Source of the DNA: a virus
IMG/VR virus record: IMGVR_UViG_3300003873_000003
Location: 1 to 64,000 of that record
Length of the DNA stretch: 64,000 nucleotides
Direction: 5' to 3' (one strand)
Part shown: positions 8,901 to 59,030 of the stretch, one piece after another
How the letters are laid out: every line of letters starts with the position of its first letter
Position numbering within the stretch: the stretch's first letter is position 1
Program-made: the position numbers and the translations under genes
Notes under the pieces: model-generated
Database searches by the model: none
Seen by the model: the letters and a program-made list of their open reading frames with translations, nothing else
What the model was told of the DNA's origin: nothing

Positions 8901-8921
8901 GCGTACCGCAAACTGCTGAAT

Positions 8922-12634: not shown

Positions 12635-12657
12635 CCCTTTGGTACTTCCTGCAATGT

Positions 12658-12667: not shown

Positions 12668-12678
12668 TACGCTTCAAC

Positions 12679-12891: not shown

Positions 12892-13346
12892 AATTCCACC
12901 TCCACCATTCGGGGTTTAGTATTGGAGATGCGGGACATAGCCTCACGGCTGCCTTCGCCTTCCCTGTAAATCCGAGCAACGGCAGTCTCATTCGGGTCAA
13001 TTTTCACATACTTACGCACGATACCTGCACGCAGCAGCTTATTCATATCGGGTACGCTTAAAGGCGTTGAACCCTTTACCAAGAACACATGATGTGTATG
13101 CTTCTCGTATAACTCGTAGCGGGGTTTCGTTAGACCTACACTCATATCCAAGACTAAATCAGAGATAGTCCCATCATCTTCTTGCACCCAATAGGTGCGT
13201 GAATCACACTCGCTCAAGATGTCGTCATCCAAGCAAGCAAGCTCTACCTTGAAGGGGAGTCGCCACCCTTCATGTGCTTCCTGTTCGTCTAGGGCTTCCT
13301 CCTGAAAGCGAGTTGACCATAGAATCATTGCTTCTGCTTTACTCAT
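12888..13346 (-). CDS. Divergent Lcl-like protein
   Basis: The start at 13346 has AAGGAGAC upstream. The 152-residue product carries GWRLPFKVELACL near residues 27-39, TYWVQEDDG in the place of the YWSSS segment, and VFLVKGSTPLSVPDMNKLLRAGI, which matches RVLLIQGYTPQNLNKVFRGM of the 12025 protein. So these two form a subgroup of the Lcl family that has lost the WHP ending. Function unknown. Confidence 0.6.
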   Translation of the reverse strand: MSKAEAMILWSTRFQEEALDEQEAHEGWRLPFKVELACLDDDILSECDSRTYWVQEDDGTISDLVLDMSVGLTKPRYELYEKHTHHVFLVKGSTPLSVPDMNKLLRAGIVRKYVKIDPNETAVARIYREGEGSREAMSRISNTKPRMVEVEL

Positions 13347-13406
13347 ACCAGTCTCCTTTGTAATTGGGGGCTTGCATGGGTTGTTTATGCCATGCAAGCC
13401 TTTCTA

Positions 13407-29411: not shown

Positions 29412-32339
29412 TTAATCTACGTCAACGAAATTAGCTTCAACAATCCGTACTCGTGCTACCATCTTCGACAAAAGCGTATCCATCTTCATGTGGTAGTTTA
29501 CACTTTCGTCAGCCTCAAGCTGCTGGGCTACTTCCTGTAAACGCACTTTCCCAAAGATGCGGCTGTTATGTTGCACAGCGTTCAGCACAGCCTTCTTATT
29601 CGTGCAGCGAATCCCCATGCGTGTCTCTTGTTCTATCAGCGAAGAGCTAACCAGTGTAACAAGGGATTCAGGTACGAAGTCCCAACCTTTAACGTCACGT
29701 AGATTGTCACCAAACTCAAAGTCCATTTCCAAACCCACTGGCAACGGCGCATTGAACTCATCACGGCAAACACGATGCACTCCCGTCGTGTACGAGTGTT
29801 CCATTATGTATGCCATCACAGGGATAGCCCAGAACGGGCATTGTGAATAGACACTATCATGCACACTGTTACTGATTTGAATCTTCAAGTCGCACCCACT
29901 GGATGTCCACTTAAACACGTTAGTCTGGAACTCCCTCCCACCGATAAACCCTTGGTCAGAGGCAGTGCCTTGAATAGGTGAGTTCATCGACATACGGGCA
30001 TTAGCCGCTTGGATGCCTGTATCAGGGTGCAGGAAGCCGAACAAGTGACGCTTACGACCCAGAGGAGAACGTGCGTAAAGGTTCTTCTTAGCGAAAGCCT
30101 GTACTGCATCGAGCCATTTCTTAGAAGCGAAGAACTTACCAAAGAACTGCTTTAGGAGCTTCTTCGTTGCGGAAAGCGGCTGCCCGATATTGTCAGAAAG
30201 AGACTGAACACCCATACCATATAGAGTACCGAACGTAGTCACCTTAACGGCGTTCCTAGCCTCCTTGGTACAATCGTCAGGGTGGGTATTGTGGAAGAAC
30301 TGCACGTTTAGTTTATGCACGTCCCCGTACAACTCAATGGCTCGCTCGTTTTCGGGTGTCGGATTCAAGCGGTAGTTGAGCCTTGCAAACAAGCCTTTGG
30401 CAAACTGTTCCGCAAACACCTTGTCTTTAGCGATTAACGTGAAACCCCGAATCTCATGAGCAGAGTAATCGGCAGCACAAAACATATTCCCTTTCTCTGC
30501 TACGAACATCCGCTTAATCACCTTACCGAGTTCAGAGCGAGAAGGGATTTGGTGTAGAGAGGGGTCTTTAGCAGAAGCTCGTCCTGTCACCACATCGGTG
30601 AAGGAGAACTGTGGTCTGATACGGCTATCCAACCTAGCATCTGGGTCATCACGCAGTACATCGTAAAACTTGTTCACATAGCTACTACGAAGCTTCTCCG
30701 CCTTACCTAGTTCCTCAAGCCACCGCACCTCTTCCACCTTACTGCTGTAGTGAGACTTGAAAGCCTTATCAAGCTTACCACCACCCTTGGCATTACGACC
30801 CAGAGGCTCAAGTTTAAGTACACCAAAGAACAAGACTTGTTTGTGCGCATCCTTCCCGATGTCAAACACATGAGGAACAGAAGCACCAAACAGCCCATTG
30901 GAAGGAGCCCCCGACTTCTTAACGAGAAGAGCGTTAGCCTTTTTCACGTTATCAGATTTACGGAAGGAGTCCTTCATTTCCTTAATAATCTTGTTCACAG
31001 GTGATTCGGGTGTCTTCAAATAATGAACCCACTCTTTATCAACAGGCAATCCAAAGTATTCCATCACAGCAAAGCAATGGATAAGAGAGCCGATAACACG
31101 GGTCACAACAGGTATGTGGTCTTCGTCTGCCTGCTTCAACTGCTCATCATGGATAAGGCGGGGTGCGATAACATCCACACAAGCGTACTCGATTAAAGCA
31201 TCGTTAAGGTCGGTGGTTGCGATAGTCACACGGTCAGCCTTGCTGAATTGCAGGGTACTATAAATGTCACTGCCGTACTGGTTACACAAGGCGGCTAAAC
31301 TGTAAGCACTGTAACCAAAGGAAGTCAGGGCAGTCCTGTTCTCGTCCAAGGCGTACTCACCTGCGGTAGTACAGTAAACAGGGGCTTTATAATAACGAAC
31401 ACCTAGGTTCAGCACTTGCCCTGTATCGAACTTTGCATTGTGCATGATATGGTATTTATTATCATTGGTCTCCAAATAGTGGCAAATAGCTTTTCTAACC
31501 TTCTCTAGTTGCGTAGGAGTAAACGGCGTATCCTTGTGGTATAACGGAACGAAGTACGCAGTAGAGCCCAACCCAAACTGGATAGAGAATAGCGTGGAAG
31601 CTCGCCGATATAGACCCGAACCCTCTGTATCAATACAGACAATATCAGCCTTGCGTAACTTGGCAAGGAGTAACTTCACCTTGCGCATTGTATCAATGTA
31701 GATGTACTTATAGTCCCCTTTATCCAGCTTGATTTTAGGTGTCGTCCCGTTTATGCACCATGATACATGGCGTATCCACATACCGATAAGCTCACTGACC
31801 TTAACAGTCTCCTTGAACTTAGCTTCGACATCACCGTAAAGCGTACTGATGGATAGGGTACTCATCACATTATATTCTGTACGACCAATCTTCACAGGGC
31901 GTACTTGACCTAGGAACTTACGAGCTTCTTGGGGTGAACCACTAAGGGCAACGTTAGGTTCTAAGCCACAGGTGATGACCATATCAGGTTTAAGTTTTGA
32001 TACAATACGCTTCACACGACCCTGACACAGAGTATCAGCAATTTCTTTTAAGTCACCACTCAAGTCGTATGTCTTACACACATTGTAGGGGACAACATAG
32101 ACTGTGCAATCTTTCTTTATGTTATCTTTGACACGGTTCATCATGTTGAAGAACAGCTTACCTACAGAACCACTAAACAACTCTTTACGTCCCATATCCT
32201 CAGTTGGGATATGGTCAACGATAAACAGCACCTTGTAGTTTCCTTCACCTAAGTAAAAAGGTCGCACGGAAAAAGGGCTGCGGTTAAGCAGCCCCTTCAC
32301 CTGACCTTCCGCTTTATCGGGAAGGTTGAAATACCTCAA
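29412..32339 (-). CDS. Family A DNA polymerase with UDG-like N-terminal domain
   Basis: A 975-residue replicative polymerase. Residues 35-190 resemble the uracil-DNA glycosylase superfamily fold (VLFIVDHIPTEDMG, then MVITCGLEPNVALSG), probably without conventional catalytic motifs. A DEDD 3'-5' exonuclease follows: DTEGSG with D237, HNAKFD, YACVDV. The polymerase has motif A AADYSAHEIRGF, motif B with KVTTFGTLYGMG, and motif C VHDSVY. It copies phage DNA with the clamp and DnaB-type helicase. There is no 5' nuclease domain. The UDG-like domain may recognise uracil or other unusual bases in the template. Confidence 0.9.
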   Translation of the reverse strand: MRYFNLPDKAEGQVKGLLNRSPFSVRPFYLGEGNYKVLFIVDHIPTEDMGRKELFSGSVGKLFFNMMNRVKDNIKKDCTVYVVPYNVCKTYDLSGDLKEIADTLCQGRVKRIVSKLKPDMVITCGLEPNVALSGSPQEARKFLGQVRPVKIGRTEYNVMSTLSISTLYGDVEAKFKETVKVSELIGMWIRHVSWCINGTTPKIKLDKGDYKYIYIDTMRKVKLLLAKLRKADIVCIDTEGSGLYRRASTLFSIQFGLGSTAYFVPLYHKDTPFTPTQLEKVRKAICHYLETNDNKYHIMHNAKFDTGQVLNLGVRYYKAPVYCTTAGEYALDENRTALTSFGYSAYSLAALCNQYGSDIYSTLQFSKADRVTIATTDLNDALIEYACVDVIAPRLIHDEQLKQADEDHIPVVTRVIGSLIHCFAVMEYFGLPVDKEWVHYLKTPESPVNKIIKEMKDSFRKSDNVKKANALLVKKSGAPSNGLFGASVPHVFDIGKDAHKQVLFFGVLKLEPLGRNAKGGGKLDKAFKSHYSSKVEEVRWLEELGKAEKLRSSYVNKFYDVLRDDPDARLDSRIRPQFSFTDVVTGRASAKDPSLHQIPSRSELGKVIKRMFVAEKGNMFCAADYSAHEIRGFTLIAKDKVFAEQFAKGLFARLNYRLNPTPENERAIELYGDVHKLNVQFFHNTHPDDCTKEARNAVKVTTFGTLYGMGVQSLSDNIGQPLSATKKLLKQFFGKFFASKKWLDAVQAFAKKNLYARSPLGRKRHLFGFLHPDTGIQAANARMSMNSPIQGTASDQGFIGGREFQTNVFKWTSSGCDLKIQISNSVHDSVYSQCPFWAIPVMAYIMEHSYTTGVHRVCRDEFNAPLPVGLEMDFEFGDNLRDVKGWDFVPESLVTLVSSSLIEQETRMGIRCTNKKAVLNAVQHNSRIFGKVRLQEVAQQLEADESVNYHMKMDTLLSKMVARVRIVEANFVDVD

Positions 32340-32963: not shown

Positions 32964-33179
32964 TCAAAATAAATTCCGTGCATAAGGTGGTAACTTGTCT
33001 TCGGGCTTCAATTCAGCTAGTGCCTGTACCCGAAGCTCCAGTATCCGAATAGAGTTGCTTACGTGCAACGGTACACTACTACCAAGTGCATCCAACCGAG
33101 CCTTGGTGTACAAAAGCGAATCAAGCTCTTTTTTAGTGGTCTCTATCACCGAAGCTAAATCACCCATCTGTAGCACCAT
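32964..33179 (-). CDS. Small coiled-coil protein
   Basis: A 71-residue helical protein (DLASVIETTKKELDSLLYTKARL). The start is uncertain: ATG at 33179 or 33167, or GTG at 33191; none has a strong ribosome binding site, and the gene overlaps the end of the upstream one. Function unknown. Confidence 0.5.
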   Translation of the reverse strand: MVLQMGDLASVIETTKKELDSLLYTKARLDALGSSVPLHVSNSIRILELRVQALAELKPEDKLPPYARNLF

Positions 33180-33636
33180 CGGTATCCGCACGGGAGTGAC
33201 CCGATGAGTCCATAGCGGTAAATACGTTTAATTCACCACGCCGCACCCCCAGCGTGGCACTTAGGGAAGTTAATGTTGGTAGCCCCTGATACGTGGTAGC
33301 CCCTGATACAGTATCCACATGCAGACTTTCTTTTTCGTCTTCATTACCATGCGTGTCATGTTTAGGAATAGGTGTGCCGCATGAACGGAGGCGGTACACT
33401 TCATCAATACAGTTCAGCAATGAATCTTGGTATATCCGCAAAGACCTCCGCAACGACTCAAAGCTATGAATCAGAGCAGCGTCAGGGGCAAAGCCTGACT
33501 CGGATAGACTCTCGACATACCCATCTAAGTGAGCTAGGTAGTCCCAAGCCTCCGCCTGTTTCTCATACAGACTAGCCTTCATCTCTCCCCAGAATGCTCC
33601 ATCTATGGTTTCATTTGCGTGTGCATCATCAGTCAT
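33160..33636 (-). CDS. Unknown protein with a P-loop-like remnant
   Basis: A 158-residue protein coupled by ATGA to the acyltransferase gene. The first 85 residues are helical. Near the end, GVRRGELNVFTAMDSSGHSRAD resembles (in parts) the RRGELxVxTGxxGxGKS opening of DnaB/KaiC-type ATPases with the Walker lysine changed to His, and the protein stops 10 residues later. It may be a decayed or chance match. Function unknown. Confidence 0.5.
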   Translation of the reverse strand: MTDDAHANETIDGAFWGEMKASLYEKQAEAWDYLAHLDGYVESLSESGFAPDAALIHSFESLRRSLRIYQDSLLNCIDEVYRLRSCGTPIPKHDTHGNEDEKESLHVDTVSGATTYQGLPTLTSLSATLGVRRGELNVFTAMDSSGHSRADTDGATDG

Positions 33637-34646
33637 AGTAACTCCTTATTGTTGGTAGGTGATGGTACTGAAAGTTGGGTTGTGAGCCCTGCACCTTTAT
33701 AGAAAGAGAAGCAAGGCTTGCTATAGAAACCCCAACTCTTCTTCCACCCATTATCGTAAGACAACGGCTCTATGCGTCTTCCTTCCGCTACAGCAAAGCA
33801 AGATTGTGTTATGTAACCATTAACAGATTTATGACGCTTATGTCGAGTCCCTGACATGAACATCGTAAGCGAGTGCTTATTGCCAATCAAGATAACAACG
33901 GCAGCAAGCTCGTTTGTGTGCCTATCTGTAACACACAAAGCGGAAACCTCGTAGGAGCAACCCTTATCAAGCAGAGCCGACACTAAAGCATCAACATCAG
34001 GGACTGCATACTGCTCGAACCTGTAAGCGTTATCACCAAAACGCTCTTTCTGCATTTCTTTAACTGCCTCAATGTGGTACAAGCTGATAGGGGAAACTTC
34101 ATAGTAATACTTCTTGTTTAACCGCTTCAAACTATTTCGGATACGCCCACGTTGTTTGTGGTTACACGCATACTGCAAGTGGGACTCCCAATCCATTTCC
34201 GAGTAGAAATGGTCAGACGAGTATTTCACAGTAACTGGTCCCGTATCCGTGTGTAGCACCATAGTGTCACCGACATTTGGCAGATTGAAGTTCGTATTCA
34301 AGAACGGTTGGTTATCAATCACCGAGCCGCTAGGAAGACTATCAGCAATAACACTCATCCAGTCCTTACTTGAGAAAGGGTGTGCAGCACTTGGGGTCAT
34401 AGAGGACAACGAAAAGTCGCTGTCAATCTCAACGTAGTTAGAATACTCACCATTGTAGCACCCATACCTGCAAAGAGGCAAGTAAACAACATCACTCACC
34501 ACTGCACATGGAGGTTCCGCAAGATGCTTATGCCAATGCTCCGTCCACTCTAGGGTGGCTTGCACAGACGGCTTCTCGATACAAGATACCCTCCTCTCCC
34601 TATCACGGATAAACTCGCTTCCAGTAATCATATCAGGCTGGGACAT
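33633..34646 (-). CDS. FemAB/BioF2-like GNAT acyltransferase
   Basis: The start at 34646 follows AAGGAGAGG. The 337-residue product has the double-GNAT look of FemAB and Acetyltransf_6 proteins: RGRIRNSLKRLNKKY opens the acyl-binding half, then KEMQKERFG, CVTDRHTNELAAVVILIGN and SYDNGWKKSWGFYSKP. Such enzymes transfer acetyl or aminoacyl groups to amines. It lies last among the modification genes and overlaps the lysine 2,3-aminomutase gene by 14 bases. Acylating a lysine-derived amine is the simplest guess, by analogy with ablA/ablB beta-lysine acetylation. Confidence 0.7.
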   Translation of the reverse strand: MSQPDMITGSEFIRDRERRVSCIEKPSVQATLEWTEHWHKHLAEPPCAVVSDVVYLPLCRYGCYNGEYSNYVEIDSDFSLSSMTPSAAHPFSSKDWMSVIADSLPSGSVIDNQPFLNTNFNLPNVGDTMVLHTDTGPVTVKYSSDHFYSEMDWESHLQYACNHKQRGRIRNSLKRLNKKYYYEVSPISLYHIEAVKEMQKERFGDNAYRFEQYAVPDVDALVSALLDKGCSYEVSALCVTDRHTNELAAVVILIGNKHSLTMFMSGTRHKRHKSVNGYITQSCFAVAEGRRIEPLSYDNGWKKSWGFYSKPCFSFYKGAGLTTQLSVPSPTNNKELL

Positions 34647-35715
34647 GTCTGACCTCTCCTTCATAGTTAATAAGCGTATTAGTATCACCATCGGTTATAA
34701 TCACCCTAGCAGGCTCTAGGGGTATCTTGCCAATGCCACCTTCACCATCCACAACAAACGTAGGCATGGCAACACCGCTGATATACCCCCTAAGTTGGCA
34801 TACGAGTGTTTGTGCATCTTGCAGACTGACTTCAAACTGTGCGTTACCTAACTCACGGTCACAGGTGTACACGTAGTAAGGTCGAATACCGATAGACACA
34901 AGGTGCATAAACAGGGTCTCAAGGGTATGGGCGTTATCGTTGATGCCTTTCAACAGCACAGTCTGACTTCCTAGTGTTACCCCTGCGTCACGCAGATTGT
35001 TTACACCATCAACAAATATCGGTGTAATCTCTTTCGGATGGTTCACATGGATATTCAAAAGCACGTTATAATCACGCAGCAACTTACAGAATGCTGGGGT
35101 TAGTCGGTAAGGATTCTGTACAGGCATCCGTGAGCTGATACGAAGAATCTTGATGTGAGGTAGTGCCCGTATCTCTTTGAAGAGGTGTTCAAGAACGGTG
35201 TCGCTCATCAACAAGGGGTCTCCGCCTGACAGAAGCACATCATTTATTTCTGTATGCTTTTGCAGGTACTCAAGTGAAGCCATGAGTTGACCTTTCGATA
35301 TGTAATCATCCTCCCCAGATACCATACGTTTGCGAGTACAGAATCGGCAGTACGCAGCGCAAGTGTTCTGAACAAGGAAAAGGACACGCTTAGGGTAACG
35401 GTGGATAATGCTCGTACCTGCGATTCGATGACGTTCCTCATTGAGAGGGTCTTCCTGCTCAACATCAGACACATCTAGCTCTTTCTTCGAGTAGAGGTAC
35501 TGCTTACGGATAGGACAGTCGGGGTCATCAGGCGACATTAAACTTAGCAGATAAGGTGTTACACCTACCTTGAGTAACCCATGTGGGGGTACATCATCAG
35601 GCACATTCGATAAGTATATGCGCAATCCATCCATACTTCGCACACTACGCTTTATCTGACTGCGCCAACTAACGTCATCAAAGCACATAGGGTCTGTAGC
35701 CATCGTTTTACTCAT
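34633..35715 (-). CDS. Lysine 2,3-aminomutase (KamA/AblA-like radical SAM enzyme)
   Basis: The start at 35715 overlaps the upstream gene. The 360-residue enzyme has RYPKRVLFLVQNTCAAYCRFC in parts, with iron-sulfur cysteines C119, C123 and C126, and LLSGGDPLLMSD for SAM and PLP phosphate. The PLP lysine is K330 in GEGGIGKIPL. Asp286 (YTCD) and Asp323 (FVVD) fall 37 residues apart and Asp323 lies 7 before the PLP lysine, exactly the spacing of Asp293, Asp330 and Lys337 in the clostridial enzyme, where the aspartates hold the lysine side-chain amine. So it should make L-beta-lysine. Rare in a phage. Confidence 0.85.
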   Translation of the reverse strand: MSKTMATDPMCFDDVSWRSQIKRSVRSMDGLRIYLSNVPDDVPPHGLLKVGVTPYLLSLMSPDDPDCPIRKQYLYSKKELDVSDVEQEDPLNEERHRIAGTSIIHRYPKRVLFLVQNTCAAYCRFCTRKRMVSGEDDYISKGQLMASLEYLQKHTEINDVLLSGGDPLLMSDTVLEHLFKEIRALPHIKILRISSRMPVQNPYRLTPAFCKLLRDYNVLLNIHVNHPKEITPIFVDGVNNLRDAGVTLGSQTVLLKGINDNAHTLETLFMHLVSIGIRPYYVYTCDRELGNAQFEVSLQDAQTLVCQLRGYISGVAMPTFVVDGEGGIGKIPLEPARVIITDGDTNTLINYEGEVRHVPA

Positions 35716-36817
35716 GGGATGAACCTTGGATGAACAGCACCAGCTCATGTGGTTCGAGAACACCACCCCAAGCTTTAGAGAAAGAAGGTGAGATAGCTTC
35801 GGTCAAGTCCTCACCCACCATAGGTACGAACTCGGGGCGAGGTAAGCCTAGGTGAGCAGAGCGACCATCTTCGTGTGCATCATTATTCGTATCAGCGGCG
35901 AACCCCATGTGAACCATAGGAAACCCATCGTACAGAGCTTCGTGGTCACGCAAAGCACGTTGCATGGAAGATACGAGTTCCCCTGTAGTCCACGGTCGAA
36001 TCTTGACAGCCTCATCCAACTTAATGTCAGCTACAACACGAGTTTCACCGTCAGACTTAGAGTGGGACTCTTCCACAACGACATTCTTATGATAAAGCTC
36101 GATGCTGTTATTGAATAGGTTACGATGTGTGACAACTGTGTACGAAACATTCAGAGTAGAACTGGAGCGTACAATGCCATCAGCGATTAAATCCTTACCG
36201 ATGTCAGTATCTGTACTCAAAGGTGTCCAGCAGTCAGACTCGTACTTATCGTGGAAGGGTGTGTACACACCGAAAGGAACGATGTTAAACTGGGCATAAT
36301 AGTCATCACCGTGCTTAACAGCATTATTAAGCAGGTTGAGGAAAAAGTCATCCATTTCAGATTCGGTCTGCAAGGCATTCAAGCTGTAATAGTACCCCAA
36401 CACTAAGTTTGTGCCTTCGGGTATAGTACAGTGAGTGGCATCGGCTGTTTCTAACCCTGCACCGTTGTCATTCAGTTCGGTTATCGTATAAGAGCTTACA
36501 TCGACTGTGGGGGAGAAGTATCCAGTGAGTTTGGAATAGTAATCCTTCCCACCAAACAACTCAACAACGTTCGCAGAGGACAGGGACTCAATGAAGGGTT
36601 TGCCAAGCTCATAAGCAGTAGTTCGCTCAAAGTCAGCACTATGGGGGAACGTTATGCCTTCAAACTCACCGTTCAACACAGTACGCAATGTTTCTCGAAG
36701 AAGGAGAGTGTCGTACAAACGAGCATGTGGGTCAGGGGCAGTAACAGCCTCGTACACGGCGGCATGGTGGTAAAGAGATTTTGCATAGTAACATAACTTG
36801 CGGTCTTTTGATTTCAT
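35708..36817 (-). CDS. Methyltransferase-like protein of the modification cluster
   Basis: A 369-residue protein. NVVELFGGKDYYSKL (about residues 82-96) occupies the place of the SAM-binding loop of a class I methyltransferase. VDVSSY could be the next acidic strand. ADATHCTIPEGTNLVLGYYYSLNAL resembles motifs II-III. The catalytic core cannot be fixed and the glycine loop is atypical, so the call is tentative. It ends in an EPHELVLF strand. It follows the ATP-grasp gene after an AAACTGTAAATG motif and overlaps the aminomutase gene by 8 bases. Confidence 0.5.
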   Translation of the reverse strand: MKSKDRKLCYYAKSLYHHAAVYEAVTAPDPHARLYDTLLLRETLRTVLNGEFEGITFPHSADFERTTAYELGKPFIESLSSANVVELFGGKDYYSKLTGYFSPTVDVSSYTITELNDNGAGLETADATHCTIPEGTNLVLGYYYSLNALQTESEMDDFFLNLLNNAVKHGDDYYAQFNIVPFGVYTPFHDKYESDCWTPLSTDTDIGKDLIADGIVRSSSTLNVSYTVVTHRNLFNNSIELYHKNVVVEESHSKSDGETRVVADIKLDEAVKIRPWTTGELVSSMQRALRDHEALYDGFPMVHMGFAADTNNDAHEDGRSAHLGLPRPEFVPMVGEDLTEAISPSFSKAWGGVLEPHELVLFIQGSSHE

Positions 36818-36882
36818 TATTTTGTAACTCCCAATATAGGATAAACAGTGGATGTAACGTAGGTCAATCGGCTACACCCACC

Positions 36883-36892
36883 ATTTACAGTT
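36883..36892 (-). promoter_or_regulatory. AAACTGTAAATG boundary motif
   Basis: Minus-strand AAACTGTAAATGG directly after the ATP-grasp stop, about 65 bases before the start at 36817. A TTGACC lies between it and the start. Confidence 0.5.
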
Positions 36893-36900
36893 TTGCACTC

Positions 36901-38568
36901 TTATGGCTTAGGGTTATGACCTGTAGCCCTATCCATAATACGCTCTAACATCTCACTATAGAACCCCTCAAATAAAGTACCGTTGTAAACACAGTCAGAA
37001 CAAGCAGGCTCGATGTATTCTTGGATGCGTGGGGAATTAGGTCGCATTTCAAACACTGTACTAAGAACGGCAACACGCCCACCATGCGAAAAGAACCCAT
37101 CTGATACAACATCATAGTACACGTCAATATACCGCATATCAACAGTGCCTTGCTGTAAGAACGCTCCAGTCGGTGTTCCTCTGCGTGTATCAGGGTAGTG
37201 AACTGCCTTGGGTGTGCGGAAACGGTCGGCAGCAAACGAAAGGTCGATAAGCGATAACCCAAAACTTTCAGGGTATAGCAGCGGTACTATCGTGTTGCGG
37301 GGGTCTGACCAAGAGTAAGTGTTCGGTGCGTTGTATGAATAGAAGTAGTCTAGGAACTCAAAAGGGCTTGGGTGTAAGATAAGACTGTCTTCTGTATCAG
37401 CACACTCCGAAGGCGCAGGCTCCATCTCACCAGCTTGCATTGCAATCGTTGCGAAGTTGCTATTCGCAAGTCGAGTCATCCACTCGATACCATAAGTAAT
37501 AGAATCATCGTGACCCATAATAAACGTCAAGTCTATGACCCCAGTGTATTCAGGTGCATTGTCAGCCAACCACGCACCTAACCGACCTGCAATTACCTCG
37601 GGGTACATGAACCGCTTGAGGCGTTCAGATGTAAGAGACACATGGTAAGTAGCAACATCACCAAACTTGGGACCGCAGCCGCCATACTGATTGTCATGGA
37701 ACAAACGATTATCCTCAATCACCAACACGCCATTCCCCACGTGACCTTGAGCAACAAAATAGGAAAGGCTGAACTCAATACCTTCGATAAAGTCTTGGAT
37801 GATGATGGGGTAAGGTAGACCCTTGCCGTTTTCGGGACGCAAAGTCAAAGCACCAATAGACTGACCACGAAGTTCCTTTACGTACACCTTTTTCGAGGTG
37901 TCATCAACGGCGGAGCATACACCGCACCAATCTTCCTCATCTTGAACCGTGACCGTTTTAGGTGTAGCGATACCGAGAGAACGGAACGCCGCATCGCCAA
38001 CACTACGAACTAACTCTAAGTCCCGTGCGGCTTTCGGTGTTCTGGGGAACAGGTTGTACGGCAAGGGTTTACCCTTCGCAACCTTGGAATTGGCTACGCC
38101 TTTATAGATGATGTCATCCAACCATTGATAGAACGGTTTAGTCTGCGCCTGCTGTGCAACTTGTTTGGAACGGGGCTTAGTACGACCACCTTTCGTTGCA
38201 CGGATGTCATCCATAGTTCTTGCGTGCTGGATACCACAGGCAGCAGGGTACACCACAGTCCCACTACCATTCTTCTCGGTAACAAAGTGATGTACGATAC
38301 GCAGCGTAGCTTCCAACGAAAAGGCGTACTCCGACCCACCAATGGAGTGAGGAATCAAGCAGGCAGTTGGATGGTCTGCAAAATAATCAGAGGCAGCGTC
38401 CCTGTTACCGATAACCAGTGTGTTAAACAAAGAAGGTTCAAAGGCTGTACTATCCCTCACCTGCTCCATAGACAAAGAAAAACGAGGTACAAGCAGATTG
38501 AAAGATTTGGTCTTGGGGTCACCGACCGTAATAACACGGTAGTCGTCAATAGAAAATTCGTCACTCAT
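36901..38568 (-). CDS. PurD-like ATP-grasp ligase
   Basis: A 555-residue protein. The central 200-390 region is an ATP-grasp domain: KVYVKELRGQS, IIIQDFIEGIEFSLSYFV, GGCGPKFGDVATYHV (compare the GARS GGMGAYSP loop) and GIEWMTRLANSNF in the place of the metal- and ATP-binding end. An N-terminal domain of about 190 residues and a C-terminal part of about 160 with a CSDC pair flank it. ATP-grasp enzymes join a carboxylate to an amine via acyl phosphate; PurD joins glycine. It overlaps the second QueC-like gene by ATGA. Joining an amino acid to a modified base is the likely task. Confidence 0.75.
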   Translation of the reverse strand: MSDEFSIDDYRVITVGDPKTKSFNLLVPRFSLSMEQVRDSTAFEPSLFNTLVIGNRDAASDYFADHPTACLIPHSIGGSEYAFSLEATLRIVHHFVTEKNGSGTVVYPAACGIQHARTMDDIRATKGGRTKPRSKQVAQQAQTKPFYQWLDDIIYKGVANSKVAKGKPLPYNLFPRTPKAARDLELVRSVGDAAFRSLGIATPKTVTVQDEEDWCGVCSAVDDTSKKVYVKELRGQSIGALTLRPENGKGLPYPIIIQDFIEGIEFSLSYFVAQGHVGNGVLVIEDNRLFHDNQYGGCGPKFGDVATYHVSLTSERLKRFMYPEVIAGRLGAWLADNAPEYTGVIDLTFIMGHDDSITYGIEWMTRLANSNFATIAMQAGEMEPAPSECADTEDSLILHPSPFEFLDYFYSYNAPNTYSWSDPRNTIVPLLYPESFGLSLIDLSFAADRFRTPKAVHYPDTRRGTPTGAFLQQGTVDMRYIDVYYDVVSDGFFSHGGRVAVLSTVFEMRPNSPRIQEYIEPACSDCVYNGTLFEGFYSEMLERIMDRATGHNPKP

Positions 38569-39278
38569 AGCTCAACTCCTAGTTCTTTGAAAAGTTCATC
38601 CACTTCGATACAAATGGGGCATTCATGGCAAGGTTCAGCATACTCGCAGCTTTGAGTACGCGCAAAGTCAATACCCATTGAAATGCCAAACTGAATAACC
38701 TCACGCTTCGTTAGGGACTCAAGCGGTGCTGTGACCAAGAAAGGCTCTGCGAAGGATGAAAAGATAGTGTCGTTCACCTGTGTATGGATTTGGCGGCAAG
38801 CATCCCGACCACGCATTAGGTTCAAGTCTGTGTTCATACCCAATTCAGATTGGTTGGATTGGAACCCCGTAGCTAAGCGGTTACAGCCGTTATAAGAGGC
38901 AACCGTGGCTGCCATGAGCATGAACAAAGGGTTGCGCCCATTAAGGAATCCCATCTCGGTGTCGGTCAGTACACAACAGTCATCACGATGGACACCTTTC
39001 TTTTGCAACTCGTAGTCTTCTTGGAAAGTAGGAACAGAGGTCAACTTACTGTAGTCCCAATCAATAACGTGCGTCTTAACTGTGCAACCGCAGTAATTTG
39101 ACAGGAAGTTTGCGTGCCAGTTCATATTGCGTTTCATGGTTTCAAAGTTCGCATTGCCTCCATTCACTAGGATTAACATGCCTAGTGAGCCAGCCTCTGC
39201 CAACATGTACGCAGCTACAGTGCTGTCGATACCTCCACTGTAAAGTACGGCTTGTTTCTTCTCAATCGGTTTTGTCAT
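38565..39278 (-). CDS. Second QueC-like (ExsB family) PP-loop enzyme
   Basis: The start at 39278 follows AAGGAGATG. The 237-residue product has the PP-loop SGGIDS at residues 14-19, NGRNPLFMLMAATVAS in the place of the QueC RNGVMLSVA segment, and a zinc-type cysteine set CEYAEPCHECPIC near the C-terminus. It is a clear QueC relative but well diverged from the QueC encoded next to it. QueC adenylates the carboxylate of CDG to make an amide and then a nitrile; a paralogue could activate the same group for another amine, or act on the modified nucleic acid. ATGA-coupled to the ATP-grasp gene. Confidence 0.8.
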   Translation of the reverse strand: MTKPIEKKQAVLYSGGIDSTVAAYMLAEAGSLGMLILVNGGNANFETMKRNMNWHANFLSNYCGCTVKTHVIDWDYSKLTSVPTFQEDYELQKKGVHRDDCCVLTDTEMGFLNGRNPLFMLMAATVASYNGCNRLATGFQSNQSELGMNTDLNLMRGRDACRQIHTQVNDTIFSSFAEPFLVTAPLESLTKREVIQFGISMGIDFARTQSCEYAEPCHECPICIEVDELFKELGVEL

Positions 39279-39303
39279 AACATCTCCTTGTTTTGTAGTC
39301 ACA

Positions 39304-39313
39304 ATTTACACTT
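39304..39313 (-). promoter_or_regulatory. AAGTGTAAAT boundary motif
   Basis: Minus-strand AAGTGTAAATTGTGAC touching the queC stop and only 25 bases before the next start, which is short for a classical promoter plus leader. Confidence 0.45.
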
Positions 39314-39993
39314 TACCCATCTTCATACAGCGTAGGGTCAACAATGCCTGCCAACGAAAAGGCTAAACGGCGTTCCGTACAAGTACCGCACTTACCACAG
39401 TGGGTCACCCCACCTTTATAGCAACTGTATGTTTCTGCGAACGGTACACCCAAGCTTGCACCGATAGATACAATTTCGTTCTTAGTCAACCCACCGAAGG
39501 GGCTTACAACTTCAACACCACCGTATGTGCCTAATGAAGCAGCCTTACTCATAGCAGTTGTGAACTCGGTACGGCAATCGGGGTAGATGGCGTTGTCTCC
39601 TTTATGCGAGGCTAGGTAAACATGGTTAAGCTTACGGGCTTCTGCGATAGCTACAGCCACAGACAACATCACACCGTTACGGAAAGGAACCACAGTGCTA
39701 CGCATCGTAGCATCCTCGTAGTGACCTTCAGGGACGTCACCTGCACCCGAAATCAAGGAACTCAGCTCACCTAAGCTGCATTGGTTGAAGACGTTATGCA
39801 AAGGTATGACGAGGTGCTCCGTGTTAGTGATAGAGCAGTTACGAGAGGCACATTCGAGTTCTCGCTCATTGTGATTTGAACCGTAGTCGAACGACACCGC
39901 TAGAGCAGGCTTCATTTGGTACAACAGAGTGGTACTATCTAGACCCCCACTGTAGATTAAGATACCAGTATTTTCGAGAATGTTAGGTTTCAT
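39313..39993 (-). CDS. queC: 7-cyano-7-deazaguanine synthase
   Basis: A canonical 226-residue QueC: PP-loop SGGLDS at residues 15-20, FDYGSNH, VPFRNGVMLSVAVAIA, then FGGLTKNEIVSIG and the zinc site CYKGGVTHCGKCGTCTERR (written here within limits). It converts CDG to preQ0 with ATP and ammonia. The start overlaps the ArcS-like stop as ATGA, so the two are cotranslated. With FolE and QueE it supplies preQ0; QueD is not visible here. Confidence 0.92.
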   Translation of the reverse strand: MKPNILENTGILIYSGGLDSTTLLYQMKPALAVSFDYGSNHNERELECASRNCSITNTEHLVIPLHNVFNQCSLGELSSLISGAGDVPEGHYEDATMRSTVVPFRNGVMLSVAVAIAEARKLNHVYLASHKGDNAIYPDCRTEFTTAMSKAASLGTYGGVEVVSPFGGLTKNEIVSIGASLGVPFAETYSCYKGGVTHCGKCGTCTERRLAFSLAGIVDPTLYEDG

Positions 39994-41138
39994 TTTGAAT
40001 CTCCATTTGAATCATTTACTTTCAGAATACACCGCTTTAAGGAGTACAAACGGTCAGGGTCAAGCAGGTCAAGATAGTCAGGATAAAACTTCACAGGATT
40101 TACATATTGTACTTCGGGCTTATACCCATCAGGCAAGTCACGTAAGGCGGCTTCAATAGCTTGATTGTAATAGTCACAGTAAGAAACAATATGCACAGGT
40201 TTATGTTTGATGATATACTTCCTAACCTGCTGCATAGCACGCCAGTCATTAGGCACGCCACTATCGTACATAGGTGCTACACCCCAGAGGTCTTGAGGTA
40301 CGATACCTAGAACACCAGTAACGATAGCAATAGTCCAAGTATCAATCCAGTCCTCATCAGGGGCTTCACAAGAAGCGAGTGTATCCATGACGGCTTTGTG
40401 CATAGGGGAAGGGTACGGCTTATCCGCAGCACATGGAACGAGTAGCAGATTCGAGGTTGGATTTGAAGGGCTATAATCATCTAAGTCCTCCAAGTAGTCC
40501 AGTACAGTTGGTCGGTGGAACCCTCCGTTGTTAGTCACCACGAAAGACTTATCATGCAACCCTACACACCAATGAGGCTGAAAGCCTTGCACATCAAGCT
40601 TCCACAAGAAATCCGTAAGCTCTGGGCGCATAGAGGCAGACCACTCGACAGCCGAGCGTGTAACCTCCAAATCAGTGAAAGTCAACGCCACGTCCTCCTC
40701 AAATTCTACAGTAGGTAACTGCACTTCAACCCCCATGTAACGCAAAAGCATACACCAAGAAGAGGGAGGATACTTCGCAATGACTTTAGGTGCATCTTTT
40801 AAGTCGCCCGTACATTGGGTCGGTAAGAGAGGAGCGAGCGTAGAAACGTACCCATCCTCATCCATGTTAAAGTCCCGCCATGTAAAGTTTGGGTTGGCAA
40901 GCTGGAACAGCTTTTTGAACAACGTCATGTAGCCTTGATAGGTGTCCTCATACGACTCGCCTTTATTAGGCGCACTCAAGTAAATGGTGTAAGTCTCTTG
41001 TGGGTCTTCGTCAGACAGACCTAGTGTGTGGTTACAAGGGTAACCAAACAGCTCACCGTGGATACAGGGGACTCCACTGACCTTTACGTGTGAGCTAAGG
41101 TCTTCGGGTGTAGGTGACGGTAGTTCTTGTTCATCCAT
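39990..41138 (-). CDS. ArcS-like (archaeosine synthase core) protein
   Basis: A 382-residue protein, first gene of the cluster. Residues 231-350 match the ArcS catalytic domain: LLLVPCAADKPYPSPMH (residues 231-247), where PCxxxKPY with K240 equals the active motif, then VTGVLGIVPQDLWGVAPMYD in the place of the ArcS SPLGVVPREL and PAAHYD segments. In archaea this domain attaches lysine to the nitrile of preQ0 in tRNA. The first 200 residues are unlike archaeal ArcS and I see no TGT domain. Start at 41138 with GAGGAGAG. It may add lysine or a relative to a 7-deazaguanine base. Confidence 0.75.
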   Translation of the reverse strand: MDEQELPSPTPEDLSSHVKVSGVPCIHGELFGYPCNHTLGLSDEDPQETYTIYLSAPNKGESYEDTYQGYMTLFKKLFQLANPNFTWRDFNMDEDGYVSTLAPLLPTQCTGDLKDAPKVIAKYPPSSWCMLLRYMGVEVQLPTVEFEEDVALTFTDLEVTRSAVEWSASMRPELTDFLWKLDVQGFQPHWCVGLHDKSFVVTNNGGFHRPTVLDYLEDLDDYSPSNPTSNLLLVPCAADKPYPSPMHKAVMDTLASCEAPDEDWIDTWTIAIVTGVLGIVPQDLWGVAPMYDSGVPNDWRAMQQVRKYIIKHKPVHIVSYCDYYNQAIEAALRDLPDGYKPEVQYVNPVKFYPDYLDLLDPDRLYSLKRCILKVNDSNGDSK

Positions 41139-53569: not shown

Positions 53570-54235
53570 TTATGGAACATACGCAGGTGGTGTTAGAGAC
53601 ACCCCAGGGAAGTTAGGCAAAGCAGCCTTGTATCCGAGTTCAGTGGAAGTGGCAGAACCATAGATGTAATTACCAAGTTGGGGCTTTGTGTAAGATGTCG
53701 GTACAACTACATCCTCGAACAAGGCTTTATTTACAAACCCTTGAACGAAAGCCGACATAGAGGATATAAGACCCCTAAAGTGCGCCTCTTCGTCTGTGAT
53801 GGCTTGAGTTATAGAAGCCTCAAGAGCAACAAGATTCGCAGGTACAGGAGGCTTAGCAGGTGGGACAACAGGCGCAGCAGGGTACGGTAAGTCATTGTAG
53901 TAACTAACGGTAGTGGCAGACACCGCAGCACGCACAGCACCGAGCCCCATAGCCGCAGCACCGTGGGTACTAGGTGGTGGTGTAATGCCCGAAGTAACAA
54001 CATAGGAATACAAGGCAGGAACAAAGTCACCAATCCAAGGTCGAGGTGCTGCAAAGTGAGCTTGTATAGCAGCATCAACAGAAGACCAGTAAGAGCTATA
54101 ATCGGCGAACCCCGTTGTGGAAGCAACTCCTGTAGAGGTCAGAGTGTAGCAGTTGTTTTCCCTGTCTGTGAGAAGTGTGTAGAGCGCAGGGTCGCTCGGA
54201 ATGGGGGATAAAACGGATTTAGCATGTACTGGCAT
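53570..54235 (-). CDS. Unknown Ala/Pro-rich protein next to the PAAR protein
   Basis: A 221-residue protein. The first half includes YSSYWSSVDAAIQAHFA and YVVTSGITPPPSTHGAAAM; the middle has a proline linker (PVVPPAKPPVPAN); the last part is helical then beta. It is encoded immediately downstream of the PAAR tip protein and could be a cargo, adaptor or another tail-tip part. That is a positional guess. Confidence 0.55.
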   Translation of the reverse strand: MPVHAKSVLSPIPSDPALYTLLTDRENNCYTLTSTGVASTTGFADYSSYWSSVDAAIQAHFAAPRPWIGDFVPALYSYVVTSGITPPPSTHGAAAMGLGAVRAAVSATTVSYYNDLPYPAAPVVPPAKPPVPANLVALEASITQAITDEEAHFRGLISSMSAFVQGFVNKALFEDVVVPTSYTKPQLGNYIYGSATSTELGYKAALPNFPGVSLTPPAYVP

Positions 54236-54254
54236 GGAGCCTCCTATTGAAAAG

Positions 54255-54548
54255 TCACTTGACCATGATTTTCGGGTTACCTGTCATAGATACGCAAGGT
54301 CCCGGGTTCGTTCCGACATCACCTACACGGTGAGCAGGTTTTCCCGTAAGGTTTGTGATAGCAGAGCCACTAAGTGCAACTACAGGATGACCACAAGTAG
54401 CGACAGCCACGTCACCTACGGCGATGCCTGGGGTAGCACCTTTAACAATAGGGTTACCTGTGACGAACGTACCAGTGTAACCTTGGGGGTTTGTATGGGC
54501 AGGGCAAACACCTACACAGATGTCACCAACACACACTAAGGGAGGCAT
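54255..54548 (-). CDS. PAAR-domain tail-spike tip protein
   Basis: The start at 54548 follows GGAGAG. The 97-residue product shows the PAAR pattern of beta-strand pairs with conserved Cys/His metal ligands: MPPLVCVGDICVGVCPAH, GNPIVKGATPGIAVGDVAVATCGHP, GSAITNLTGKPAHRVGDV and GPCVSMTGNPKIM, given here in parts. In contractile tails, PAAR proteins cap the spike and carry a metal ion. It suggests a contractile (myovirus-type) tail. Confidence 0.88.
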   Translation of the reverse strand: MPPLVCVGDICVGVCPAHTNPQGYTGTFVTGNPIVKGATPGIAVGDVAVATCGHPVVALSGSAITNLTGKPAHRVGDVGTNPGPCVSMTGNPKIMVK

Positions 54549-54549
54549 A

Positions 54550-55320
54550 TCACTCTCCCTCAACCACGGCTAACATCTTATGGTAGAATAAGTAGCCATG
54601 CGCCCCAAGACCTCTTGTATCCTCGCTCGCCTCCTCCATAACAGCGTCTATCTCCGCCTTAACAACCTCCAAGTCAACATGGGGATGGTTAGCGTCAGAA
54701 GCCACAATGTTGTGAGTATCACAATACGAGGCATACACCTTACGCAGGTACGACAGATTGAAGTCATCACGGTCTAAGATACGACCCAAGAGAGGCGTAT
54801 CCATGTGTTGCTCTAAGGCATAGCGGACGACTGCAAGAGATGCAATACGTTGTTTAACTGGAAGCACAGCATCGAATCGGGAACCGCACATCTTAGAGAG
54901 TCGTAGCTCTTCCGTGTTCACCTTAGCGTCAACCAACGGAATAGCGAGGTTCTTTAATAGGACGGGGTTAAGTGTGAGCAGAAACAGCTCTAACAGGTTG
55001 CCACACTGTATGACAATGTTTTCAACAGCCTCTGTATGAGCAGGAAGAGTGGAGTTCATCTCCGAACGTACTTGAGATGCGATGCTTTGTAGGACGTTAC
55101 GAGGAACCCTGTCCCCTAAGCCAGTGTAGTCTAAGTGTGAAATATCATCACTACCGAACAGGTCAATGTAGTCATCAACGTCTTCGGACGCTACAACATA
55201 ATCCATAACGTCAAGTAAGTCGAGGTAAACAATCAATAGATTCCTAAACTTATCAGGGGTAAGCATTGAGGTAAGACCTTTATGCAGGTCGAACAGGTCA
55301 TCGGGGATACGTTCTCCCAT
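54550..55320 (-). CDS. Unknown helical protein, one of three similar neighbours
   Basis: The start at 55320 follows AAAGGAGAA. The 256-residue product is helical with acidic stretches. The segments LLELFLLTLNPVLLKNL and IASLAVVRYALEQHMDTPL seem to correspond to parts of the next two proteins upstream. Located before the PAAR gene; may be a baseplate or virion part. Not recognised. Confidence 0.55.
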   Translation of the reverse strand: MGERIPDDLFDLHKGLTSMLTPDKFRNLLIVYLDLLDVMDYVVASEDVDDYIDLFGSDDISHLDYTGLGDRVPRNVLQSIASQVRSEMNSTLPAHTEAVENIVIQCGNLLELFLLTLNPVLLKNLAIPLVDAKVNTEELRLSKMCGSRFDAVLPVKQRIASLAVVRYALEQHMDTPLLGRILDRDDFNLSYLRKVYASYCDTHNIVASDANHPHVDLEVVKAEIDAVMEEASEDTRGLGAHGYLFYHKMLAVVEGE

Positions 55321-56154: not shown

Positions 56155-56799
56155 CTAGTCAGAAGTGCATCTGTATATGTAGTCCAAGTAGTTCGCCAGA
56201 TGATAGGCAAAGTCAGCTCGCACCTCGACATCACGGTACAGGTCAACATCACTAACAACATCAACCACATGAGCAATCGCTTCATCCGCTAGGGACGCAA
56301 CACGATAGTCAGACCGTGAGATTTCACCTGAACCTGCCAAATAGATAAGGAAGGTAACACTATTTATGGAGCCCAAATCAAAGTATTCTGTAGGAGGTAT
56401 CCACATCACCACACGCAACGCCAAGTCCAAGGCATTAACCTTTCGGCGAGCAGCACGGATACTACGCACACGCATTTCAGGGGTTTCTCCGATGAAACAA
56501 TGGGCGTGGTAAGAGTATTCGGTGTACGCCGACCTACGCAAAGCCCTAAGAGTCTCTAGGTAAAGACGCTTCATAAAACGGTTTTCAGCTATGGTTACCT
56601 CGGTTAAGAGATTACCGAGCGCATCAGACTCTAGGGGTTCATCAATCACAGATTGAACTATGTCAGCCACACCCGACAAAGGGTTGTATTGACGAAGGGT
56701 ATCACGGATGACTTCTGCCCGACGTGTATTTAACTTTGCTATTGATACAGTCGTGGACGAAGGTAAGTCACAGTTAGAATGCTCTGTTACAGTAGGCAT
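56155..56799 (-). CDS. Unknown helical protein, one of three similar neighbours
   Basis: A 214-residue protein: helical core with RFMKRLYLETLRALRRSAY and ALDLALRVVMWIPPTEYFD, similar in layout to the two genes downstream. Start at 56799, with TTGGAG upstream. No family recognised. Confidence 0.52.
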   Translation of the reverse strand: MPTVTEHSNCDLPSSTTVSIAKLNTRRAEVIRDTLRQYNPLSGVADIVQSVIDEPLESDALGNLLTEVTIAENRFMKRLYLETLRALRRSAYTEYSYHAHCFIGETPEMRVRSIRAARRKVNALDLALRVVMWIPPTEYFDLGSINSVTFLIYLAGSGEISRSDYRVASLADEAIAHVVDVVSDVDLYRDVEVRADFAYHLANYLDYIYRCTSD

Positions 56800-56945
56800 T
56801 ATTTAAGCTCCAAGGGATAAGGTTATCCAATATACGAAATAAGAGGGCAAGTGTGCAGGTGTAGGGGAAACCACCGACCACCTCACTAGGAACTACTGGC
56901 ACAACTAAAAAACTACATGCCTAGCAATTAGCAAAGGTAGCCGTC

Positions 56946-59030
56946 TCACACTTTGTTTAAGTGTGCCTCCCCTCCACTACGAGTAACACGGTACACGTCA
57001 CCTAAGCCCATATCAAAAGGCGATACGACCACTACATTCACCAACTTAGACAAGCTAGGTAAGAACTCGGAGATGAACAGCGACTTGCTGCTATCATCCA
57101 TACCGCTCTCAATCTCATCGAAGATGACGGTATCGACTCTGCTTGTCTGGGGCATGATGCTTATAAGGGAGATGTAAAGCAAGCAAATAAACTGCCTGCG
57201 CTCTGCGCCACTAAGCATACGGACATCTGACACTAGACCCGAAGGTCGTGTAACAACAATCTGCAAAGAGGAAGGGTTGACGATAATCTCAAACTTAAAG
57301 GATTCTGCGAATAGCAGGCTTCTGTAGGTATTAAGCTTCTTAGTACAGACAGCAGCCAAAGCCCGAAGCGTATGTATCTTGATACCTGTGTTTGAGTAAG
57401 CATCTGCTAAGGCAGAGTAACACACTAAGTCATCAAGCTCCTCTTCAAGTTCATCAAGCTCTAACTTCAATTCCGCCTGCTCTTCCAAGTCTTTCTCATA
57501 GAGAGCCCGACTGACCTCATACCCGTGCAGCTCGTTTGACAACGATTTTATACGTTTGCCTAGCTTACCAAGCCTCACCGTATCAGGGTTAGTCTCAGGC
57601 AGGGCAACCCCATAAGCGTCTCGGTAGTCCTCGATGTTAAAATCGAGTGGTGTTGGCTTGGTTGGTTTCGGTACGGGCTTGACTATAGCTCTACGCAACC
57701 AAGAGCGGTGTTCGTCTATCTCATCCTCGATGTCGTTTAATCGTGATAACATAGGCTTAATATCAACCTTCCCTAGAGTCTTCTCCAGCCTAGCCCTCTC
57801 CTGCACGGATTTCAAGGAATCGTTGAACTCGGTGCGCTTCAACAGCTCGGCTTTATACTTGGCGACCCTAGACTTGGACTTATCGTACAAGGCTTGGATG
57901 GAATCAGCATCTAGCTCCGAAGAGCAGGTAGGGCATACGCAAACACCGACAATACCCTCCAGAGAAGCTACAAGCTCAAGTGCTTGGGATAGCCTACCTT
58001 CAATCTCTGATACAGGTTTCGGTGACGCATCTGCACTTACCTTAACAGTTACCGTAGGGAGGCGAGCTATCTCTGCCTTCACAGACTTGTTACTGGCACT
58101 AATACGGCGTGCAGCACGAACCTCAACCTTCAAGTCAGCAAGCTCCGAGGTCAAGGCATCCAAAAGGTCTTGGCGTTCTTCTCGTGACATGGGGTCAGGC
58201 TTGTATGCCTTAAACTTCCTGTATGCCGCTGCATCTGCCTTATATGACTTTACAGCGGTGGCGTATGCAGAATAAGCGTCTAAAGCGGCTGTGTAGTCTG
58301 CCTTACTCAATGGTACTAGGGCTTTAGCCGAGGACGTTAACCTATCGTAGTTCTGTTGCTGAAAGGTTGTTTCAGCGCACAGCTTCTGCAAACGTTCGTA
58401 CTGCTTCCGATACTTACGGAGCTTCTCCACATCCGCTGACCTATCAGGGACTACCTCCACTTCCTTAATGCGGTCGTTAAGAGTCTCGAACCTGACTTTC
58501 TTTTTCTTCAACTCACGCACTTTAGCCAACATGGGTTTCTGCAAGTCAGCGTACTGCTCTAGGGGAAAAATCTCCTCGAACGCTACCAGTCGGTTAGCAT
58601 CAGTTCCGTTTAGAAACGGCGAGAAAAGCAAACTATTGATATAGAAGGTTGAGTAGAACATAGCAGGGGTTAATGGAAATATCTCTCTCACCATCTCCTT
58701 AGCATGTGACTTAGTGCGAACAGCTAAGTCCTTACCATCACGGTAAATCTTATAGCCCCCATCATAGATTATCTTATAACGGTGTTCATTCGTGAACTCG
58801 ACAGTAATAGTCCCTGTCTTCAACTTCGCTCTCGACACAGCAAGAGGGTGGTCTTGAAGCACGGTACAGAGTGCATAGAACATAGCAGACTTGCCTGCCC
58901 CATTACTGCTGTGTGGTTTCCTGTCTTTATTGAGACCTATCACGGAAGTTAAAGGGGCGTTACCGAACTGAAAGGTGGTATCGACATGGTGCGCACAACC
59001 CTCTAGTCGAATACTGTGCATCTCAATCAT
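56946..59030 (-). CDS. SbcC/gp46-like recombination ATPase
   Basis: The start at 59030 follows AAAGGAG. A 694-residue ABC/SMC-type protein: ATP-binding head with SNGAGKSAMFYAL near residues 39-52, long coiled coils, a zinc hook CPTC near residue 390, more coiled coil, then the signature MLSGAERRQF and Walker B VDTVIFDEIESGMDD. It matches the Rad50/SbcC/T4 gp46 layout. It should work with an SbcD/gp47 nuclease in DNA end processing; that partner is not visible beside it. Confidence 0.9.
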   Translation of the reverse strand: MIEMHSIRLEGCAHHVDTTFQFGNAPLTSVIGLNKDRKPHSSNGAGKSAMFYALCTVLQDHPLAVSRAKLKTGTITVEFTNEHRYKIIYDGGYKIYRDGKDLAVRTKSHAKEMVREIFPLTPAMFYSTFYINSLLFSPFLNGTDANRLVAFEEIFPLEQYADLQKPMLAKVRELKKKKVRFETLNDRIKEVEVVPDRSADVEKLRKYRKQYERLQKLCAETTFQQQNYDRLTSSAKALVPLSKADYTAALDAYSAYATAVKSYKADAAAYRKFKAYKPDPMSREERQDLLDALTSELADLKVEVRAARRISASNKSVKAEIARLPTVTVKVSADASPKPVSEIEGRLSQALELVASLEGIVGVCVCPTCSSELDADSIQALYDKSKSRVAKYKAELLKRTEFNDSLKSVQERARLEKTLGKVDIKPMLSRLNDIEDEIDEHRSWLRRAIVKPVPKPTKPTPLDFNIEDYRDAYGVALPETNPDTVRLGKLGKRIKSLSNELHGYEVSRALYEKDLEEQAELKLELDELEEELDDLVCYSALADAYSNTGIKIHTLRALAAVCTKKLNTYRSLLFAESFKFEIIVNPSSLQIVVTRPSGLVSDVRMLSGAERRQFICLLYISLISIMPQTSRVDTVIFDEIESGMDDSSKSLFISEFLPSLSKLVNVVVVSPFDMGLGDVYRVTRSGGEAHLNKV

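Follow-up and report, generated by a model that had tools for sequence, protein, structure and literature searches.

A phage gene cluster joining ArcS-core, QueC-family and lysine 2,3-aminomutase genes: a possible route to lysine-bearing 7-deazaguanine in DNA

INTRODUCTION

Some phages, including 9g, CAjan and nt-1, place 7-deazaguanines in their DNA with the help of FolE, QueE, QueC and DpdA, a homologue of the tRNA-guanine transglycosylases (TGTs); nt-1 also encodes ArcS (PMC6884629). The same study left open the role of a phage ArcS that occurs without RaSEA. In archaeosine synthesis, which uses both proteins, archaeal ArcS moves lysine onto the nucleoside of preQ0 (7-cyano-7-deazaguanine) and onto its 5'-monophosphate, and it needs no tRNA structure to do so (PMC11298593). 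Ligation of an amino acid to a phage DNA base is also known, because CmoY is a phage ATP-dependent amide ligase that adds glycine to such a base (PMC12783734). Here, we describe a gene cluster in the first 64,000 bases (hereafter, the window) of the 118,360-base IMG/VR virus record IMGVR_UViG_3300003873_000003, from a large uncultured phage, in which genes for an ArcS-core protein and two QueC-family proteins share one run with a gene for lysine 2,3-aminomutase (KamA). We tentatively read the cluster as part of a pathway that puts a lysine-derived group on 7-deazaguanine in phage DNA, with ArcS in the route, and we judge the case for this reading to fall just short of balanced.

RESULTS

The cluster spans positions 33633-41138, where seven minus-strand open reading frames (ORFs) are tightly packed with short overlaps or gaps (Table 1); a first-pass annotation of the window had both their coordinates and their contiguity right. 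By gene content, the cluster belongs with DpdA-type 7-deazaguanine DNA modification and works like such a pathway: FolE, QueE, QueC and a TGT-superfamily protein are all encoded in the record, and QueD is untraced. The canonical QueC scores 162.1 bits with TIGR00364 (cut-off 150.3) and carries SGGLDS, VPFRN, YPDC and CY...CGKCGTC. FolE (PF01227, 120.6 bits) and QueE (PHROG 2076 QueE, E = 5.8e-35) are homologous to genes of the Vibrio phage GR7B at 54211-54951 and 56564-57496, respectively. We also observed in QueE an insert of ~40 residues that separates the cysteines of its expected iron-sulfur motif (CNFTC ... CDT).

The transglycosylase gene lies at 75566-77215 of the record, 11.6 kb past the end of the window. 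The first-pass annotation had reported no DpdA, which is correct for the window and incorrect for the record; the search of the rest of the genome for a TGT- or DpdA-like gene that it had proposed is what brought this homologue to light. A PF01702 search of the whole record gave no match, and the gene surfaced only through its homologues in GR7B and a second Vibrio phage, GR11A (33-34% identity, tblastn E = 2e-74). Searched alone, the protein scores 29.6 bits with PF01702, against a cut-off of 26.3. Four DpdA homologues (those of the record, GR7B, GR11A and the Pseudomonas putida phage Lauda) have an invariant DSGGFQ motif and CxCxxC...H zinc site, which we take to be typical motifs of TGT enzymes. 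The protein scores far under the cut-offs of tRNA TGT models. The genome therefore has the type of enzyme that places 7-deazaguanines into phage DNA, and we infer that this homologue acts on DNA.

The link to lysine comes from KamA, which matches TIGR00238 with 280 bits (cut-off 199) and the lysine 2,3-aminomutase structure 2a5h with E = 1.9e-97. Its radical-SAM CxxxCxxC motif aligns with that structure, as do D303, D340, K347 and R145 with D293, D330, K337 and R134; D293 and D330 are the lysine-recognizing aspartates of the C. subterminale aminomutase, and K337 its pyridoxal phosphate lysine. Among equivalog models the best match is AblA (TIGR03820), at 332 bits and thus under the cut-off of 525. 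Its sequence places the protein in the aminomutase subfamily, with lysine-type residues but short of the AblA equivalog threshold. It is 43-44% identical to the KamAs of GR7B, GR11A and Lauda. In a tree with 43 other viral KamAs, those of the cluster in the window, Vibrio and P. putida phages group separately as a single clan with support of 100/100. At 56 other IMG/VR KamA loci (L027-L082), where we checked up to 10 kb on each side, none (0/56) had a QueC, ArcS, DpdA or ATP-grasp relative nearby. Note that many IMG/VR contigs carry KamA outside the cluster context; some of them exceed 200 kb, and some may be cellular.

The gene set recurs in cultured phages. GR7B and GR11A have arcS, queC, queC2, x1, x2, ATP-grasp, kamA and GNAT genes in one row; elsewhere in its genome, GR7B encodes FolE, QueE, a QueD-like protein and DpdA, and the QueD-like gene is also present in GR11A. 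Nine P. putida phages share the same 12-kb region, which holds two QueC-family genes, ATP-grasp, x2, two methyltransferase-like genes and KamA. In Lauda, the one of these examined in full, whole-record searches found FolE, QueE and DpdA elsewhere, so that FolE and QueE occur in all three lineages. KamA, ATP-grasp, QueC-family and methyltransferase-like genes thus recur together in the window, Vibrio and P. putida phages. Portal, terminase, RecA and other core genes are also common to these genomes, with identities of about 30-47%; the gene set is therefore an ancient trait that one phage group has kept, not a chance adjacency.

This recurrence bears on an alternative in which the DNA carries ordinary dPreQ0, dADG or dG+, ArcS acts as proposed for nt-1, and the KamA/ATP-grasp module is an unrelated neighbour. 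Such an arrangement would agree with nt-1, which has preQ0 genes, DpdA and ArcS and contains mostly dPreQ0, some dADG and a little dG+ (PMC6884629), and with the occurrence of ArcS without KamA at 11 IMG/VR loci. We nevertheless regard it as improbable, because three diverged lineages keep KamA, ATP-grasp and methyltransferase-like genes together with QueC and DpdA, whereas other viral KamAs lack such neighbours. Alternatively, KamA could make a free solute, the osmolyte N-epsilon-acetyl-beta-lysine, with the GNAT that follows kamA in GR7B and GR11A (159 amino acids, PF00583) serving as AblB. This is hardly credible: no recognizable GNAT stands beside kamA in the window or in Lauda, and ATP-grasp and QueC-family genes occupy the same run in the window, the Vibrio phages and Lauda. 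Separately, GR7B has a gene annotated as acyl carrier protein (152570-152905; locus L084 31494-31829) three genes before its DpdA homologue, and it is imaginable that this protein is a carrier for an amino-acid group.

The ArcS-core protein scores 34.2 bits with PF17884 (cut-off 26). It matches the archaeosine synthase model NF040592 (E = 4.6e-12) over residues 161-330 only, and its 45.3 bits fall short of the 440 that mark the full-length archaeal architecture. Identity to the GR7B and GR11A counterparts is 36-38%. All 13 phage ArcS homologues contain PCAxDKPYP, and AF0587 has PCTARKPY, so the PC-x3-KPY core is common to both. An AlphaFold 2 model of the protein (predicted local distance difference test score, pLDDT, 74) has AF0587 (2q07) as its only PDB match at E < 0.001; after AF0587, the model resembles folds of the uracil-DNA-glycosylase superfamily, with weak E-values. 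We predict that the protein is the archaeosine-synthase alpha core only, acting as a preQ0-lysine amidine synthase. Because archaeal ArcS is independent of tRNA structure, DNA is a plausible substrate for it. RaSEA gave no TIGR01210 match in the window record, GR7B, GR11A or Lauda, and the product of ArcS therefore need not go on to archaeosine. With a core-only ArcS and RaSEA absent, the cluster is not an archaeosine pathway by membership. An IMG/VR search with the window ArcS protein alone returned no matches; one with the ArcS alignment returned the 11 loci mentioned above, none with KamA in the flanking DNA covered. The phage ArcS alignment also turned up no relatives in a single scan of bacterial and archaeal genomes.

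QueC2, the second QueC-family protein, scores above the cut-off of PF06508 (64 bits) and reaches only 42 bits with TIGR00364. It keeps the SGGIDS ATP loop, GRN (the RN pair) and the zinc cysteines, but its YPDC tyrosine is lost and CE replaces the CY that is essential in canonical QueC; QueC2 is thus set apart from canonical QueC by both score and catalytic tyrosines. E. coli QueC mutants at the YPDC and CY tyrosines lose activity, and the QueC paralogue Cap9 has a CE...CxxCxxC motif (PMC13329287). Taken together with the residues of QueC2, these findings lead us to predict that it does not make preQ0. Cap9 couples 7-carboxy-7-deazaguanine (CDG) to an amine (PMC13279940), and by analogy we guess that QueC2 is possibly a CDG-amine ligase. 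The CE signature is also found in GR7B, GR11A and two ArcS-bearing IMG/VR loci (L019 and L022), and the second QueC-family protein of Lauda lacks it. At L019 and L022, ArcS adjoins the CE-type QueC2 with no KamA in the flanking DNA covered, which suggests that QueC2 goes with ArcS and not with KamA. The first-pass annotation had named the ArcS core, the canonical QueC, a second QueC-like enzyme and lysine 2,3-aminomutase, with QueE and FolE elsewhere in the window, and each of these identifications stands.

The same proteins could in principle act on tRNA or protein, through ArcS on tRNA, beta-lysylation of elongation factor P (EF-P), or a Cap9-like QueC2 that joins 7-deazaguanine to a protein. 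Archaeal ArcS is, after all, a tRNA enzyme; KamA is also related to the EF-P enzyme EpmB (TIGR03821, E = 8e-68); and the CE...CxxCxxC pattern of QueC2 is like that of Cap9. Such a target is nonetheless quite improbable, given that KamA scores better with lysine 2,3-aminomutase than with EpmB, that the transglycosylase is so far from the tRNA TGT models, and that QueC2 lacks the YPDC tyrosine that Cap9 retains.

The remaining genes of the cluster are less well defined. The predicted ATP-grasp protein is 29% identical over 207 positions to its GR11A counterpart, and the family has members in the window, Vibrio and Pseudomonas phages. Its proposed likeness to PurD emerged from a joint profile with its relatives, which matches PurD structures (5vev, E = 1.2e-4; 2xcl, E = 3.1e-4), and not from Pfam with the protein alone, where matches were below cut-off. 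IMG/VR searches with the ATP-grasp and x2 alignments yielded no further viral loci. Jackhmmer links the methyltransferase-like protein to two-copy families in GR7B (7255-8169 and 8894-9841) and Lauda (193 and 194), with E-values from 1e-17 to 1e-26. The family is thus conserved in all three phage lineages, and the methyltransferase likeness seen in the first-pass annotation has a weak Methyltransf_31 match in one Lauda copy (E = 0.033). The last gene had been called a FemAB/GNAT acyltransferase, a call that we could not confirm: it has no meaningful match in Pfam, NCBIfam, PHROGs or PDB, no relative was found in these searches, and its single-sequence AlphaFold model (pLDDT 35) is too low in confidence for the fold to be read. 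We also considered whether it corresponds to x2 of the other phages; the two could not be tied together (hhalign E about 0.02, probability 2%), and a short basic motif is all that the last gene was seen to share with GR7B x2 and Lauda 192.

Table 1. Genes of the cluster and related features of the window.
Feature	Position	Strand	Basis
ArcS-core protein, 382 aa	39990..41138	-	PF17884, NF040592
Canonical QueC, 226 aa	39313..39993	-	TIGR00364 above cut-off
QueC2, divergent QueC paralogue, 245 aa	38565..39302	-	PF06508
Putative ATP-grasp (PurD-like) ligase, 555 aa	36901..38568	-	Joint profile with relatives
Methyltransferase-like protein, function uncertain, 369 aa	35708..36817	-	Jackhmmer family, weak fold signal
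KamA, lysine 2,3-aminomutase, 377 aa, start likely near 35715	34633..35766	-	TIGR00238
Last gene, 352 aa, no family assigned; probable internal start	33633..34691	-	ORF list
158-aa ORF, 4-base overlap with last gene, may not belong to cluster	33160..33636	-	ORF list
FolE, GTP cyclohydrolase I, 218 aa	26208..26864	-	PF01227
QueE, radical SAM 7-carboxy-7-deazaguanine synthase, 344 aa	14662..15696	-	PHROG 2076

Both kamA and the last gene probably start slightly inside their listed ORFs. The 158-aa ORF had no family match in the family-profile scans. Just downstream of the cluster, the window encodes a family A DNA polymerase (29412-32339, PHROG 17) whose N terminus is extended by a long segment; at another locus (L013), a polymerase encoded near ArcS carries an N-terminal uracil-DNA-glycosylase domain. 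Small paralogous proteins with a common GWRLPTxxEL-type motif, reminiscent of DUF1566 or lectin-like domains, are encoded at 1-3048 and 12025-13397 of the window and at 71514-72476 of the record. They are possibly variable surface proteins.

DISCUSSION

We propose that the cluster would be the tailoring part of a DpdA-type 7-deazaguanine DNA hypermodification pathway. FolE, QueE and QueC, with QueD from elsewhere, would make CDG and preQ0, and the DpdA homologue would insert the deazaguanine into phage DNA in place of guanine. ArcS may then couple lysine, through its side-chain amine, to the nitrile; as no RaSEA was found, the resulting amidine-linked lysine would be retained and not cleaved to archaeosine. 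KamA would convert lysine to beta-lysine, and the ATP-grasp enzyme would be the one to form an amide bond. Attachment or tailoring of the lysine or beta-lysine group might involve this ligase together with QueC2, the methyltransferase-like protein and possibly the last gene. A more detailed version, which we consider doubtful, is a two-part decoration in which ArcS builds an amidine-lysine on 7-cyano-7-deazaguanine and beta-lysine is then added through an ATP-grasp amide, perhaps with methylation, to give a cationic DNA side chain. The first-pass annotation had suggested a lysine-bearing 7-deazaguanine. Its deazaguanine half has gained the DpdA homologues with their DSGGFQ and zinc motifs in the record and its relatives. 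Its lysine link has gained the conservation of KamA, ATP-grasp and methyltransferase-like genes with QueC and DpdA in three lineages; the exact product of ArcS at position 7 is the part that has not been strengthened.

Several observations weigh against this proposal. ArcS is absent from the whole Lauda genome, where PF17884 and the phage ArcS profile both find nothing, and we therefore rejected the P. putida phages as ArcS-dependent. Because they keep the KamA module all the same, ArcS cannot be the sole means of attaching the chain, and in these phages at least, another enzyme may attach it, for example, as an amide. The DNA of nt-1, which likewise has ArcS, shows mostly dPreQ0, as described above. 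QueD has no PF01242 match in the 118-kb record, as the first-pass annotation had found for the window, and it was not found in the whole Lauda genome either; the record is probably incomplete, since the genomes of cultured relatives are 195-208 kb, and QueD could be supplied by the missing part or by the host. The methyltransferase call derives from the faint Pfam match of one relative, and the last gene cannot be placed in FemAB, GNAT or any other family. Last, the shared core genes mean that the recurrence partly reflects common descent and does not amount to three independent assemblies.

The absence of ArcS from Lauda is also a point in favour of another route, in which QueC2 or the ATP-grasp enzyme links the lysine-derived group as an amide to CDG in DNA, and ArcS is an extra or alternative route. 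Lauda-type phages without ArcS retain two QueC-family proteins, ATP-grasp and KamA, and the coupling of CDG to an amine by Cap9 offers a chemical parallel. We consider this route unlikely, however, since ArcS adjoins QueC2 in the window and in both Vibrio phages, the substrate of QueC2 is only guessed at, and the second QueC-family protein of Lauda is without the CE signature.

A lysine-derived group with ArcS in the route continues to be the reading that we prefer. To our knowledge, no known phage product (dPreQ0, dPreQ1, dADG, dCDG, dG+ and small variants, leaving aside four from Cui et al. 2023) carries an amino-acid chain, and the proposed group would be bulkier than these. If the proposal is true, then, as far as we know, no DNA 7-deazaguanine bearing such a chain has been described before, and lysine 2,3-aminomutase would be serving nucleic-acid modification for the first time; by title or abstract, none of the papers listed that mention aminomutase and deazaguanine together concerned phage DNA. 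The proposal would also assign a function to ArcS in phages that lack RaSEA, and a positively charged group in the major groove should influence restriction, packaging and how polymerases read the DNA. Because the gene set is present in cultured phages of Vibrio and of the laboratory strain P. putida KT2440, the question is open to direct liquid chromatography-mass spectrometry (LC-MS).

Among described systems, the window set is closest to the DpdA-type modification of 9g, CAjan and nt-1, with which it has FolE, QueE, QueC and the DpdA/TGT homologue in common, and ArcS in the case of nt-1; to these it adds KamA, ATP-grasp, the divergent QueC2 and the methyltransferase-like family (PMC6884629). 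It resembles archaeosine synthesis in its ArcS core (DUF5591) and in the lysine transfer to preQ0 nucleotides known for archaeal ArcS (PMC11298593), and differs in that its ArcS is core-only and phage-encoded, that RaSEA was not found and that its transglycosylase is unlike tRNA TGT. QueC2 has the QueC fold and altered substrate motifs of the anti-phage defence paralogues Cap9 and QatC, with a CE...CxxCxxC similar to that of Cap9; unlike them, it is a phage gene beside ArcS, without the YPDC tyrosine and with no protein partner known (PMC13329287, PMC13279940). As in the CmoA/CmoX/CmoY system for carboxymethylcytosine-glycine, modification enzymes of tRNA type would be reused on phage DNA together with an ATP-dependent amide ligase that adds an amino acid; there, however, the base is cytosine, the ligase is asparagine-synthetase-like and the amino acid is glycine (PMC12783734).

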